Of a stretch of DNA of 64,000 bases, positions 38,619 to 58,361 are shown in pieces. A model generated the notes under the pieces. It saw nothing but the letters and a program-made list of their open reading frames with translations. It was not told the DNA's origin and made no database searches. The translations under genes and the position numbers were made by a program. The stretch lies in the NCBI RefSeq assembly GCF_025154015.1, contig NZ_JAOAMV010000001.1, positions 248,001 to 312,000 on the forward strand, in the 5' to 3' direction. Within the stretch, counting starts at the first letter, position 1. Each line of letters begins with the position of its first letter. Source of the stretch: Tsuneonella litorea. GTDB taxonomy: Bacteria > Pseudomonadota > Alphaproteobacteria > Sphingomonadales > Sphingomonadaceae.

Positions 38619-39683
38619 ATGTTCCGTGAACTCGACCCTGCCCGCTATACGATCGACTGGACGGCGCTCGCGCACGCAGCAACTTACGGCATCGGTGCCG
38701 TACTGCTTGCGCTGGTGCTCCACCGCCTGGTGTTCGCCGTCTCGCGCCGCCTCGCCGCGCGGACCGAAACCGACACCGACGAGATGATCCTCGCAGTGCT
38801 GCGTACGCCGTCGCGCTGGGCAGCAGTCGCGATCGCTCTGGCGCTGGCCGCCCAGGTGGATGAGACGGTCGCCCGCGGCTGGACCGTGATCGCGCCATTC
38901 GTCGTCCCCGCGCTCGTCGGCTGGATCGCCTATTCGCTGGTCAAGGCCTTCGCCGCCGCACTTGACCACAAGGCCGAGATTTCGACCGATCTTGCCGCCG
39001 CGCGCAGCCGGCGGACGCGGATCGCGATCCTGTCGCGCACGGCGACTTTCGCCATCGTATTCGTGACGGTCGGGCTGATGCTGTTCCAGCTGCCCGGCGT
39101 GAAGCAGGTGGGCGCGACGCTGCTGGCCTCAGCCGGCCTCGCCGCACTCGCGGTCGGCGCCGCCGCCCAGCCGGCGCTCAAGTCGCTGATCGCGGGGCTG
39201 CAGATGGCGCTGACCGAGCCGCTGCGGCTCGGTGACCTCGTCTCGATCGACGGCCACACCGGCCGGGTCGAGGAGATCCGGATGAGTTTCGTCGTCGTTC
39301 GGATGTGGGACGAGCGCGCTGCGATCGTGCCGACCAGCCGGTTCCTCGACAACAGCTTCGAGAACTGGTCGCGCGTCAACGAGATGCTGACCGGCCCGGT
39401 CTACCTGCAGCTCGCGCCCGAAGCCGAGGTCGAACCGATCCGCGCGGAATTCCTGCGCTTCGTGGCCACCCAGCCCGAATGGGACCAGCGCACCGCGACG
39501 CTGGTGATGACCGAGGCCCGCGCAGGCTCGGTCGAGCTGCGCCTCGCGATGAGTTCGGCCACCATCGGCGGCCTGTTCGACCTGCGCTGCGCGGTGCGCG
39601 AGCACATGCTCGACTGGCTGCGGCGCGAGCAGCCGGACGCGCTGCTCCACGCCGCGGTCGCCGCCGAGGGGGCGCCCGCCTAG
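38619..39683 (+). CDS. Mechanosensitive ion channel MscS family protein
   Basis: 354 residues. Three or four N-terminal membrane helices precede the pore helix and the MscS beta domain. The pore region is VGATLLASAGLAALAVGAAAQ, followed by GLQMALTEPLRLGDLVSIDG and GRVEEIRMSFVVVRMWD, and AIVPTSRFLDNSFENWSR; this is the usual order. It should open on membrane tension and protect against hypo-osmotic shock. It begins 50 nt after the kinase gene, so both may be co-transcribed. Its stop codon TAG shares the palindrome CTAG with the stop of the convergent AAA ATPase gene. Confidence 0.92.
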   Translation: MFRELDPARYTIDWTALAHAATYGIGAVLLALVLHRLVFAVSRRLAARTETDTDEMILAVLRTPSRWAAVAIALALAAQVDETVARGWTVIAPFVVPALVGWIAYSLVKAFAAALDHKAEISTDLAAARSRRTRIAILSRTATFAIVFVTVGLMLFQLPGVKQVGATLLASAGLAALAVGAAAQPALKSLIAGLQMALTEPLRLGDLVSIDGHTGRVEEIRMSFVVVRMWDERAAIVPTSRFLDNSFENWSRVNEMLTGPVYLQLAPEAEVEPIRAEFLRFVATQPEWDQRTATLVMTEARAGSVELRLAMSSATIGGLFDLRCAVREHMLDWLRREQPDALLHAAVAAEGAPA

Positions 39684-42022
39684 TCGTCGCTGCGGTCGAC
39701 CACCGCGGGGGCGTGCTTGTGCTCCCGCGTCGGCTCGAGCATTCCTTCGCTGATGAAGCCGATGCTGGTCCCGGTTTCCGCGGCCCGCTTCTTGAGCTCG
39801 CCGCGCATCTTCTTGTATTCCTCTTCCATCTTGGGCGTGACCGTGGCGCGCGAATCCGCCAGCGCCTCGGTAAAGTCCTTCGCCGAGACTTCGGATACCT
39901 CGCTGCCCACGCGGCGCAACGCGTTCAGGCCGGCGCGGCGGACGACGTCCTCGAGATCGGCCCCGGTGAACCGCTCGGTGTCGGCGGCGACCTTGCCCAG
40001 ATCGACATCCTGCCCCAGCGGCATGTTGCGCGTGTGGATGCCCAGGATCATCTCGCGGCCAGCCTTGTCGGGAGTGCCCACGTAGACCAGTTCGTCGAAG
40101 CGGCCCGGCCTGAGCAGCGCCGGGTCGACCAGCGTCGGGCGGTTGGTCGCCCCGATCACGACGACCGACTGCAGCTCCTCGAGCCCGTCCATTTCGGCGA
40201 GAATCGTGTTGACCACCCGGCCGGTCACCTGCGGCTCGCCCTGGGCCGACCCGCGCGCCGGCACCAGGCTGTCGATCTCGTCGATGAACAGCACGCAGGG
40301 CGCGACCGACCGTGCTCGCTGGAACAACCGCGCGATCTGTTGCTCGCTCTCGCCGTACCACTTCGACAAAAGGTCCGAGCTCTTCATCGAGATGAAGTTC
40401 GCCTCCGCCTCCTTCGCGACGGCCTTTGCGAGCAGGGTCTTGCCGGTGCCCGGCGGTCCGTAGAGCAGGAAACCCTTGGCCGGCCGAATGCCCAGGCGGC
40501 GAAAGGCGTCGGGGTTCTTGAGCGGCAGCTCGACCCCTTCCTTGAGCTTGTCGATCGCCTCGGTGATCCCGCCGATGTCCGACCAGCCCACGTCGGGCAC
40601 CTGCACCATGACCTCGCGCATCGCGCTGGGCTGGACACGCTTGAGCGCCTCGAGGAAGTCCTCGCGGCCGACGTACAGTTCCTCGAGCACCTCGGGTGGG
40701 ACCTCGCGCGCATCGAGGTCGAGCTTGGGCATGATCCGACGCACCGCCTCGATCGCCGCCTCGCGGGCCAGCGCGGCGATGTCGGCGCCGACGAAACCGT
40801 GCGTGGTCTTCGCCAGTTCGCCGAGGTCGACCTTGTCGCCCAGCGGCATCCCGCGGGTGTGAATGCTCAGGATCTCGCGGCGCCCCTTCTCGTCGGGCAC
40901 GCCGATGACGATCTCGCGGTCGAACCGGCCCGGGCGCCGCAAGGCCTCGTCGATCGCGTCCGGCCGGTTGGTCGCCGCGATGACGACGATGTTCGAACGC
41001 GCTTCCAGCCCGTCCATCAGCGTCAGCAGCTGCGCGACGAGGCGCTTTTCGGCTTCGCCGGGGGTCTGGCTGCGCTTGGGCGCGATCGAATCGATCTCGT
41101 CGATGAAGATGATCGCGGGCGAATTCTTCGCCGCCTCCTCGAACACCTCGCGCAGGCGCTTCTCGCTCTCGCCATAGCCCGAACCCATGATTTCCGGGCC
41201 GTTAATTGTGATGAAGTGCGCGTCGCTCTCGTTGGCGACCGCCTGCGCAAGACGGGTCTTGCCGGTCCCCGGCGGGCCATGGAGCAGCACGCCTTTAGGC
41301 GGATCGACGCCGAGGCGGGTGAACAGTTCGGGATAGCGCAGCGGCAGTTCGACCATCTCGCGCAGCTGCTGGATCGTGTCGCCGATCCCGCCGACGTCGT
41401 CGTAATTGACCACCGCGCGCCCGTCGCGCGGCTCCTCGAACTCGCTGCGCAGCTCGACCTCGGTGTTCTCGTCGATGTGGACGATGCCCTTGGGCGCTGT
41501 CGAGACGACCGAGAGGCGGATCTGGGTCAGGGCGTAGGCCGGCTGGTTGAACATCCGGCGCACTTCGGGCGGCATGTTGTTGACCGGCTGCTGCCCGGTC
41601 GTGGCGACGATGTCGCCCGCGACCAGCGGCTTGCGGAAGAAATTGCGCTGCAAGGCCTGGGTCGGCCCCTGCAGCCGCATTTCGCGCTGCGCGGGCGCGA
41701 ACACCACGCGGGTCGCGGGACGCGATTCGGCTGCCTTGATCACGACGTGCTCGCCGCTGCCGACCTCGGCGTTGCCGCGCTGGAGCCCGTCGAGCCGGAT
41801 GACCTCGAGCGCCTGGTCCTCGTCGTAGGCCGGGGCGGCAATCGCCGCCGTGGTGCGCTTGCCGGTGATCTCGACGACGTCACCCTCGGTGATGCCGAGC
41901 GCCTGGAACGCGCTGCGGGGCATCCGCGCGATGCCCTGCCCGCTCTCCTCCTGCCGTGCCGCCGCGACCTGCAACCGGATGGTTCGTTCGTCCGTCGCCG
42001 TCCCGGCGTCCGCATCGGCCAT
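39680..42022 (-). CDS. Cdc48/VAT-family AAA+ ATPase with two AAA domains
   Basis: 780 residues, length and design of archaeal VAT and eukaryotic p97/Cdc48. An N-terminal double-psi barrel and four-stranded domain (about 10-190) is followed by AAA D1 and D2. Each has Walker A GPPGTGKT (near 249 and 525), Walker B FIDEIDS, and NRPD/NRPT with RRPGRFD or LRPGRFD, so all ATPase residues are intact. The second domain carries KWYGESEQQIARLF with the aromatic pore residue. It should unfold proteins for degradation or disassembly. Most bacteria lack this protein; sphingomonads and some others have it. AGGAAGG precedes the ATG. Confidence 0.93.
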   Translation of the reverse strand: MADADAGTATDERTIRLQVAAARQEESGQGIARMPRSAFQALGITEGDVVEITGKRTTAAIAAPAYDEDQALEVIRLDGLQRGNAEVGSGEHVVIKAAESRPATRVVFAPAQREMRLQGPTQALQRNFFRKPLVAGDIVATTGQQPVNNMPPEVRRMFNQPAYALTQIRLSVVSTAPKGIVHIDENTEVELRSEFEEPRDGRAVVNYDDVGGIGDTIQQLREMVELPLRYPELFTRLGVDPPKGVLLHGPPGTGKTRLAQAVANESDAHFITINGPEIMGSGYGESEKRLREVFEEAAKNSPAIIFIDEIDSIAPKRSQTPGEAEKRLVAQLLTLMDGLEARSNIVVIAATNRPDAIDEALRRPGRFDREIVIGVPDEKGRREILSIHTRGMPLGDKVDLGELAKTTHGFVGADIAALAREAAIEAVRRIMPKLDLDAREVPPEVLEELYVGREDFLEALKRVQPSAMREVMVQVPDVGWSDIGGITEAIDKLKEGVELPLKNPDAFRRLGIRPAKGFLLYGPPGTGKTLLAKAVAKEAEANFISMKSSDLLSKWYGESEQQIARLFQRARSVAPCVLFIDEIDSLVPARGSAQGEPQVTGRVVNTILAEMDGLEELQSVVVIGATNRPTLVDPALLRPGRFDELVYVGTPDKAGREMILGIHTRNMPLGQDVDLGKVAADTERFTGADLEDVVRRAGLNALRRVGSEVSEVSAKDFTEALADSRATVTPKMEEEYKKMRGELKKRAAETGTSIGFISEGMLEPTREHKHAPAVVDRSDD

Positions 42023-42138
42023 GTCTGGGCCCCTTCCTCGTCAAAAACGCATCGTCGGCCCTTCAGCTAGGAAGCGGGCCGCACTTTGCCAATGAACGGG
42101 CAGCGATTCGGTGCCGCGACGGGTGCCTGGACGGGGAA

Positions 42139-42207
42139 CAAAAAAAGGCCCGGAGGGACGAACCCGCCGGGCCTTGGAAGTCTTGGGAGAGGATGCCTGA
42201 AAGGCAG
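42139..42207 (-). ncRNA. Candidate small RNA of about 68 nt
   Basis: The minus strand has, in order, a promoter, a 5' hairpin TGCC-TTTCA-GGCA (42206-42194), a single-stranded CU-rich stretch TCCTCTCCCAAGACTTCC, and a Rho-independent terminator. No ORF explains the terminator, since the nearest minus-strand gene upstream is more than 6 kb away. The layout (two hairpins, C-rich linker that could pair with Shine-Dalgarno sequences) recalls short Hfq-type sRNAs of alphaproteobacteria such as mmgR/suhB, but I cannot claim homology. Confidence 0.55.
42140..42175 (-). terminator. Orphan minus-strand Rho-independent terminator
   Basis: On the minus strand AAGGCCCGG (42175-42167) pairs with CCGGGCCTT (42153-42145); the loop can add a GGG/CCC pair. 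A run of seven T follows. It belongs to the candidate sRNA. Confidence 0.85.
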
Positions 42208-42212
42208 GACGG

Positions 42213-42241
42213 GATATGTTGCACTGCGGCGCATTGTGCAA
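42213..42241 (-). promoter_or_regulatory. Promoter of the candidate sRNA, inside a palindrome
   Basis: Minus-strand TTGCAC (42241-42236), 17-nt spacer, CATATC (42218-42213). The -35 is one arm of an inverted repeat spanning 42219-42241, whose arms are TTGCAC...GTGCAA with inner TGCG/CGCA, a form suited to a dimeric regulator. The -10 matches the consensus only in part. Confidence 0.45.
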
Positions 42242-42346
42242 GTGCGAAAAGAACATGGCCCGTTGCGTTTTCCTCAACACGTCATGCCCTTGAGAGGCCG
42301 CCGCAGCCCCGTGACAGGCCCGGATTCGCGGGCTAAGCCCCCCGCG

Positions 42347-43054
42347 ATGAACAAGCTCTATCCGGACGCCGCCGCCGCGCTCGACGGCATTCTCAGGAAC
42401 GACATGCTGATTGCCAGCGGGGGCTTCGGCCTGTGCGGCATTCCCGAGCGGCTGCTCGACGCGATCCGCGACAGCGGGGTTAGCGGCCTCACCTTTGCCA
42501 GCAACAACGCAGGAATCGACAACGAGGGCATCGGCAAGCTCCTGCGCACCAAGCAGGTCAGGAAGATGATCTCGTCCTACGTCGGCGAGAACAAGGAGTT
42601 CGAACGGCAGTACCTGGCCGGCGAGCTCGAGGTCGAGTTCTGCCCGCAGGGCACGCTCGCCGAACGGATGCGCGCGGGCGGTGCCGGCATCCCGGGGTTC
42701 TACACCAAGACCGGCGTGGGCACGAAGGTCGCCGAGGGCAAGGAGACCAAGGTCTTCGACGGCGAGGAGTACATTCTCGAGCGCGGCATCTTCGCCGACC
42801 TCGCGATCGTCAAGGCGTGGAAGGCCGACGAGACCGGCAACCTCGTGTTCCGCAAGACGGCGCGCAACTTCAATCTGCCGGCGGCGACCTGCGGCAAGGT
42901 CTGCGTCGTCGAGGTCGAGGAGGTCGTGCCCGTCGGCAGCCTCGACCCGGACTGCATCCACCTGCCGGGCGTCTACGTCCAGCGGATGATCGTCGGCGCG
43001 CCGTACGACAAGAAGATCGAGTTCCGCACCGTCCGCGAGCGCGAGGCGGCGTGA
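42347..43054 (+). CDS. scoA: 3-oxoacid CoA-transferase subunit A
   Basis: 235 residues. With subunit B it moves CoA from succinyl-CoA to acetoacetate or a similar 3-oxoacid. IASGGFGLCGIPERLLDAI holds the glycine-rich CoA-binding loop; YVGENKEFERQYLAGELEVE, FCPQGTLAERMRAGGAGIPG and FYTKTGVGT are classic subunit A segments. Substrate choice (acetoacetate versus others) is inferred from closeness to SCOT. The start at 42347 gives the standard MNKLYPDAAAAL. Its stop overlaps the GTG start of an inserted lipoprotein gene; subunit B follows that gene. Confidence 0.95.
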   Translation: MNKLYPDAAAALDGILRNDMLIASGGFGLCGIPERLLDAIRDSGVSGLTFASNNAGIDNEGIGKLLRTKQVRKMISSYVGENKEFERQYLAGELEVEFCPQGTLAERMRAGGAGIPGFYTKTGVGTKVAEGKETKVFDGEEYILERGIFADLAIVKAWKADETGNLVFRKTARNFNLPAATCGKVCVVEVEEVVPVGSLDPDCIHLPGVYVQRMIVGAPYDKKIEFRTVREREAA

Positions 43055-57772: not shown

Positions 57773-57824
57773 CGGGCGGATACGTGTTGCGATGCAAAAT
57801 GAGCCCGCGTAAGGGCCGCGCATC

Positions 57825-58361
57825 ATGCAGATCGACAAGATTCCCGTGGGCGACAACCCGCCCGAGAGCCTGAACGTCATCATCGAGGTGCCGACCGGCG
57901 GAGAGCCGGTGAAGTATGAGTTCGACAAGGACAGCGGCGCGCTGTTCGTCGACCGCATCCTACACACGCCGATGCGCTACCCGGCGAATTACGGCTTCGT
58001 GCCGCATACGCTGTCGCCGGACGGCGACCCGCTCGACGCGCTGGTCATCGCCCGCAGCCCGTTCATCGCCGGCTGCGTCGTGCGCGCGCGCCCGATCGGC
58101 GTGCTCAACCTCGAGGACGAGCACGGCGGCGACGAGAAGCTGATCTGCGTGCCGATCGACACGACCTTTCCGTATTATTCCGATGTCGCCGAGCGGCAGG
58201 ACCTGCCGTCGATCATCTTCCAGCAGATCGAGCACTTCTTCACCCACTACAAGGACCTCGAGGCCGAGAAGTGGGTGCGCGTCGGCGCCTGGGGCGACGC
58301 TACCGAGGCGCGCCGCATCGTCGAGGAAGCGATCGAACGGGCAAGAACCGCGAAGGACTGA
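57825..58361 (+). CDS. ppa: Inorganic pyrophosphatase (family I)
   Basis: 178 residues. It hydrolyses pyrophosphate to drive biosynthesis. The metal motif DGDPLDALV, plus KYEFDKDSGALFVDRIL, PANYGFVPHTLS and EKWVRVGAWGDATEA are all typical of bacterial hexameric enzymes. It ends 6 nt before the convergent BON-MscS gene. Confidence 0.98.
   Translation: MQIDKIPVGDNPPESLNVIIEVPTGGEPVKYEFDKDSGALFVDRILHTPMRYPANYGFVPHTLSPDGDPLDALVIARSPFIAGCVVRARPIGVLNLEDEHGGDEKLICVPIDTTFPYYSDVAERQDLPSIIFQQIEHFFTHYKDLEAEKWVRVGAWGDATEARRIVEEAIERARTAKD

Follow-up and report, generated by a model that had tools for sequence, protein, structure and literature searches.

A candidate PhaR-linked promoter with three conserved elements at an MmgR/SuhB small RNA gene of Tsuneonella

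In the window analysed here, a stretch of DNA of 64,000 nucleotides, an intergenic region separates the gene of a CDC48-type AAA ATPase from that of a 3-oxoacid CoA-transferase subunit, and it raises the question of whether a small RNA is encoded there and, if so, what turns it on. The earlier note had described a complete small RNA gene on the minus strand, with its promoter inside a 23-nt inverted repeat that was thought to be recognised by a dimeric regulator. To our knowledge, the signals that switch on alphaR8 RNAs, which are widespread in the Alphaproteobacteria, have been worked out in few species.

We first consider the RNA itself. The only Rfam match within the 64-kb window was RF00519, the MmgR/SuhB (alphaR8) family, with a covariance-model score of 49.2 bits against a curated cut-off of 41 (E 4.3e-07 for the 64-kb window), and the match was full length (model positions 1-77, window positions 42132-42212). 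The Rfam search that the earlier note had proposed against suhB/mmgR was thus passed, and the likeness to alphaproteobacterial sRNAs, which it had offered as analogy only, became membership above a curated cut-off. Like other RNAs of this plan, the sRNA combines a 5' hairpin, an unpaired CU-rich anti-Shine-Dalgarno core and an intrinsic terminator. RF00519 was also present in 54 of 60 relatives, in 160 of 179 genomes of the family and in 58 of 106 genomes sampled across the class Alphaproteobacteria. No second copy above threshold was found in the window genome; copy number varied among alphaproteobacterial genomes, with five to seven matches in G021, G063, G082, G108 and G260 and one in others. 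By its sequence, the gene is a new member of the known MmgR/SuhB small RNA family.

For comparison, we used 144 family loci from 125 genomes, namely 45 of the family matches among the relatives (some weak matches omitted) and 100 of the listed family matches, in a list that gave the best first, less one locus (L087) left out for having no TCCTC(T/C)C core. The core was TCCTCTCCCA in 82 of the 144 loci and TCCTCTCCTA in 59, with three single variants in the rest, and the general form UCCUCUCC(C/U)A occurred in 141/144. All 14 aligned sequences from other families retained TTTCCTCCC. According to the accessible text of a study of Caulobacter (PMC12559287), all alphaR8 RNAs have the core UUUCCUCCCU in common; this exact 10-mer is absent from the window sRNA. 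Because the covariance model accepts the window sequence, we treated the family core as a lineage variant of the alphaR8 core. The suggestion that the CU-rich stretch could block Shine-Dalgarno sites agrees with these data, as the stretch is an unpaired anti-Shine-Dalgarno core in the conserved form of the family.

Folding of the 68-nt RNA gave -29.9 kcal/mol, compared with -17.88 (sd 2.42) for shuffled sequences (z -4.97), and none of 200 shuffles was as good. The terminator stem covaried: all eight of eight pairs formed in 70% of 168 loci, and in 7.5% when a differing arm was substituted from another locus. RNAalifold, run on a MAFFT alignment with misplaced terminators, reported 4 pairs. 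The 5' hairpin is weakly informative because it is near-invariant within the family; in other families of the order it was mostly GCCC/GGGC, and twice ACCC/GGGT. Hence, of the stem covariation that was to be sought in relatives, the part concerning the terminator arms was found, whereas the 5' hairpin hardly varied. Among the open reading frames on the minus strand, no convincing protein gene ended at the terminator and only mechanical overlaps were seen, in line with the view that no protein gene accounts for it. A consensus promoter scan that required the -10 to end in T did not flag the TTGCAC/CATATC promoter, and a terminator scan over 5 kb returned one site, the sRNA terminator itself, which is below the shuffle mean of 2.3. 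Since these simple consensus scans gave no independent support, the case for the gene rests on homology and conservation. All parts named in the earlier note, from the -35 TTGCAC through the seven-T terminator, lie where it had placed them, and the RF00519 score, the fold and the retention of the RNA and of its promoter elements in relatives bear out its reading of a complete, conserved small RNA gene.

Table 1. Features of the small RNA locus and its flanking genes (window positions)
Feature	Position	Strand	Remarks
CDC48-type AAA ATPase gene	39680..42022	-	PF02359, PF00004; same strand as sRNA
MmgR/SuhB (alphaR8, RF00519) small RNA	42140..42206	-	about 67 nt; 5' end estimated from -10
Intrinsic terminator, seven T	42140..42175	-	fold and covarying stem
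CU-rich anti-Shine-Dalgarno core TCCTCTCCC, unpaired	42185..42193	-	
5' hairpin TGCCTTTCAGGCA (TGCC/GGCA)	42194..42206	-	near-invariant across 144 family loci
-10 CATATC	42213..42218	-	17 nt from -35; aligned promoters
Candidate PhaR-type box GCGCCGCAGTGCAACAT	42216..42232	-	between -35 and -10
Inverted repeat TTGCAC-N11-GTGCAA, 23 nt	42219..42241	-	six exact pairs
Overlapping YGCRNYGCR cores CGCAGTGCA and TGCGCCGCA	42220-42228, 42225-42233	-	between -35 and -10
Conserved element TTTCGCACTTGCACAA	42234..42249	-	includes -35 TTGCAC (42236-42241)
Distal dyad GTTGAGGAAAACGCAAC	42262..42278	-	centre about -64 from estimated start
3-oxoacid CoA-transferase subunit A gene	42347..43054	+	TIGR02429 over cut-off; divergent

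The gene neighbourhood was partly conserved. Of the 45 family loci for which flanks were retrieved, 26 have the CDC48 gene next to suhB, among them those of all eleven sampled Tsuneonella genomes, and 21 have the gene for CoA-transferase subunit A somewhere in the 1.5 kb of flanking sequence. In the window, the two 3-oxoacid CoA-transferase subunit genes (TIGR02429 and TIGR02428; 42347-44614) stand about 0.9 kb apart, and the open frame between them is, judged by eye, presumably lipoprotein-like.

Alignment of the 144 promoters revealed three elements at near-fixed spacing. The -35 element TTYGCASTTGCR, with at most one mismatch, was found in 120 loci (shuffle mean 0.3, maximum 3); the distal dyad RTTGCR-N5-YGCAAY, with at most two mismatches, in 130 (shuffle mean 7.4, maximum 19); and the PhaR-type core YGCRNYGCR in 52, of which 33 had it at one position (shuffle mean 5.0, maximum 9). 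All three occurred together in 40/144 loci. The dyad does not appear in the description given by the earlier note. In 25 loci from other Sphingomonadales families, the distal dyad was found once, and the -35 element and YGCRNYGCR were found in none.

These elements decide the fate of the 23-nt repeat. A dimeric regulator reading TTGCAC...GTGCAA as one operator would fit the exact match over six pairs in the window, but among 144 homologous promoters only the window's own had the repeat, with a loose form in 10, and its halves belong to separately conserved elements. We ruled it out as a single operator, and a regulator of this kind is very improbable. The repeat is, as judged from the aligned promoters, a chance juxtaposition: the -35 element supplies the left arm, and the end of the putative PhaR-type box TGCGCCGCAGTGCA the right arm. 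What survives of the original proposal is that palindromic candidate regulator sites do lie at this promoter; what falls is the choice of the palindrome.

The -35 element was also searched for elsewhere. Of 59 family genomes, 30 had the pattern TTTYGCASTTGCRMAA and none had its reversed control. We examined 37 of its 39 places; in 23 the suhB core followed 38-41 nt on, and 13 were elsewhere, while one place (L133) carries what we take, by eye, to be a variant of the suhB core. This fixed distance and the inclusion of the -35 would suit an alternative in which RNA polymerase reads TTTCGCACTTGCACAA as an extended core promoter, with no regulator site. But the conservation extends several nucleotides upstream of the -35, the element is a dyad in some members (TTTCGCA-CT-TGCGAAA), it occurs away from suhB in 13 of the 37 places examined, and the reversed pattern was missing from all 59 genomes; we therefore hold the extended promoter to be rather doubtful, and prefer a regulator site that overlaps the -35. 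The places away from suhB included a gene for a NarK-like transporter (L130; TIGR00886 was the best match, below the cut-off for the scanned fragment), a second transporter gene (L134) that by eye we take to be NarK-like as well, a gene for an NMT1-like binding protein (L129, PF13379), for which nitrate transport is our guess, a glutamate-synthase-like gene (L116, PF00310) and, presumably, polysaccharide genes recognised by eye. One more of these places is in the window genome, where an exact copy of TTTCGCACTTGCACAA precedes a DEAD-box helicase gene (L091:1501-1516, minus strand).

The distal-dyad pattern was not enriched in the window genome (22 occurrences against 40 for the reversed pattern, one mismatch allowed), so that the support for the dyad comes from its fixed place upstream of suhB. 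A perfect GTTGCR-N5-YGCAAC dyad lies beside GTGCGAA between rsh and cydA (L398, L397, near position 1500), where rsh is a name that we presume to denote the RelA/SpoT type from its HD domain. There the dyad adjoins a reversed -35-type element in both the window genome (G000) and the Tsuneonella genome G002. The combined pattern was found in 4 of 179 genomes, two of them at the rsh/cydA intergene (G000, G002) and two elsewhere, and is not general in the family. Taken together, the neighbours of these sites give hints in favour of a nitrogen or energy regulator for the -35 element or the distal dyad.

The third element recalls the operator of PhaR. PhaR is a PHB-sensing repressor, and phasin genes are its classical targets. 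The window genome encodes PhaR (PF07879, PF05233; TIGR01848, 142 bits against a cut-off of 109.45), and a TGCGCTGCA core stands 59 nt upstream of its phaR gene. According to the available text of PMC12542648, PhaR (AniA) of Sinorhizobium meliloti recognises YGCRNYGCR palindromes, one of them in the mmgR promoter, and shifts that promoter in a manner abolished by changes to the palindrome. In 29 of 30 phasin loci, TGCRNYGCA occurred in the 900 nt that precede the domain (3.9 in shuffles; 8/30 at the far 3' end). All 29 had at least two copies, paired 46-60 bp apart, and in the window genome the pair flanks TTGACT...CCTATTTT. At this phasin locus (L386, contig C27), the boxes TGCACTGCA and TGCAGTGCA are 48 bp apart, some 570 and 522 nt ahead of the phasin domain, and flank the presumed phasin promoter in the layout seen at 29/30 phasin loci.

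From 58 such phasin-promoter sites, picked as TGCRNYGCA pairs 44-62 bp apart, we built a PhaR matrix. It gave 12.9-25.3 bits on six printed S. meliloti PhaR sites, with 21.8 for that of mmgR. The core pattern YGCRNYGCRNYGCR by itself was near chance in the GC-rich window genome (158 occurrences against 126 for the reversed pattern), and we discarded it as proof of PhaR control. Within the 64 kb, the sole matrix site above 10.28 bits was at 57784-57800, a short way upstream of the gene for an inorganic pyrophosphatase (57825-58361, PF00719); inorganic pyrophosphatase is a proposed PhaR target in S. meliloti in the part of PMC12542648 that we could consult.

When the matrix was applied to the 144 family suhB promoters, 57 passed a 5% promoter-wide threshold and 38 a 1% threshold, and 87 failed at 5%. 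We also scored 30 class-level loci, the better-scoring 30 among 58 matching genomes, no two of them from one family and none from the family of the window. Of these, 21 passed the 5% threshold, against 0.98 expected from shuffles and 2.3% of tiles elsewhere in the loci; at the stricter threshold 19 passed, with 0.15 expected. The class-level boxes stood at varying distances from the RNA. Among 25 loci of other Sphingomonadales families, the box passed in one (0.20 expected). The link between PhaR-type boxes and alphaR8 promoters is, as predicted by the matrix, widespread and not universal.

In the window itself the box is marginal, scoring 3.9 bits against a 5% threshold of 4.14, and 5.3% of shuffled promoters reach 3.9. 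At the same position, the other Tsuneonella genomes gave 16.6 (G003), 19.7 (G007), 9.0 (G002) and 2.1 bits (G008), and six of eleven had no box at the suhB locus. Three genomes with two copies (G001, G004 and G005) have no box at this copy and 17.5, 19.4 and 14.9 bits, respectively, at the second. Fifteen genomes had two or more sampled copies: six of them carry the core in part of the copies, two in every copy and seven in no copy. An alternative is that the gene is an MmgR/SuhB sRNA whose box has decayed, so that PhaR no longer controls this copy and control is left to the -35 element and the distal dyad. The marginal score, the six boxless Tsuneonella loci, the strong boxes on second copies and the far greater conservation of the other two elements all speak for such a loss. 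On the other side, the window genome has no second copy above threshold, two overlapping YGCRNYGCR cores occupy the conserved position, which is strong in G003 and G007, and only four sites of at least 3.8 bits occur in the 64 kb. We judge decay of the box unlikely, and retain a functional PhaR input at the window promoter as the preferred reading.

Genomes that lack the repressor offered a further comparison. The core was kept in 1 of 6 promoters from five genomes without PhaR, against 51 of 138 others, counts that do not clearly tie loss of the box to loss of PhaR. In the same six promoters without PF07879, the distal dyad was kept in 6, the -35 element in 4 and the core in 1. The distal dyad was ruled out as a PhaR site on this count of 6/6, in which one genome (G184) is 67% complete and may have PhaR missing from its assembly. 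Because all six PhaR-less promoters keep it, the dyad appears to be independent of PhaR.

These results suggested that the locus encodes an anti-Shine-Dalgarno sRNA of the MmgR/SuhB family that is repressed by PhaR and governed by one or two further regulators, a model that we consider probable. PhaR would bind the box between the -35 and the -10 and repress transcription, as the sequence indicates. PHB granules would titrate PhaR away and release transcription of the sRNA, and the RNA should therefore rise as PHB accumulates. The -35 element and the distal dyad near -64 would be the sites of one or two further regulators. By analogy with studied relatives (SisA, SuhB of TFA), the core UCCUCUCCC, with the help of Hfq, would pair with ribosome-binding sites, and this pairing would repress the translation of carbon-metabolism mRNAs; phasins may be braked by the sRNA as in S. 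meliloti. Pairing of the RNA core with the starts of phasin mRNAs gave 22 duplexes of -1.3 to -12.0 kcal/mol, none of them decisive, in a crude calculation with no control.

On a wider scale, PhaR control of an alphaR8 sRNA may be a widespread, perhaps ancestral alphaproteobacterial circuit that links the PHB store to an anti-Shine-Dalgarno RNA. In Sphingomonadaceae, this circuit would sit within a three-element promoter; undescribed regulators would read its two other elements and would serve nitrogen-related genes and the Tsuneonella rsh/cydA intergene as well. After duplication of the RNA gene, the PhaR input could persist in a single copy only. We advance this scenario as a whole tentatively, at somewhat less than even chances. 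The sRNA gene itself is mostly ordinary and its promoter logic partly new; the class-wide PhaR-type box is the part of most worth. As 21 of 30 promoters, drawn from 30 families, have such a box, a shared activation route through PHB-titrated PhaR could be tested with one protein. The -35 element and the distal dyad provide two named promoter elements for undescribed regulators. In the literature searched we found no PhaR-suhB link for sphingomonads, and the primary papers on mmgR and on SuhB of strain TFA may state a wider PhaR link.

Three known systems can be set beside the window sRNA. The first is MmgR of S. meliloti, which belongs to the same RF00519 family and has an anti-Shine-Dalgarno core (described in the portions available of PMC12542648 and PMC8401924). 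Its promoter also has a PhaR (AniA) palindrome, TTGTGCACCGCAGCAT, to which the phasin-derived matrix gives 21.8 bits. As far as the available text of PMC8401924 goes, NtrC activates mmgR, and a dyad between the -35 and the -10 is held responsible. The two RNAs differ in the core (TCCTCTCCC in the window, the TTTCCTCCC type in S. meliloti), in gene neighbours and in the promoter, where the window has a weaker box and two extra conserved elements. SuhB of Sphingopyxis granuli TFA, from the same order as the window genome, is a 61-nt sRNA of the same name. In the consulted part of the review PMC6563040, it is Hfq-dependent, represses the translation of thnR, a gene of the tetralin pathway, and is raised at high growth rate. 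PHB granules are drawn there as a positive input to suhB transcription, with the mechanism not given (PMC6563040). If the model above is true, titration of PhaR offers a mechanism for this positive effect. SisA-D of Caulobacter crescentus are sibling RNAs of the alphaR8 type and work by means of an anti-Shine-Dalgarno 10-mer, and the accessible portion of their description reports that no shared promoter motif was found (PMC12559287). Compared with these siblings, the family core is TCCTCTCC rather than the UUUCCUCCCU of that paper, and most family copies share promoter elements.
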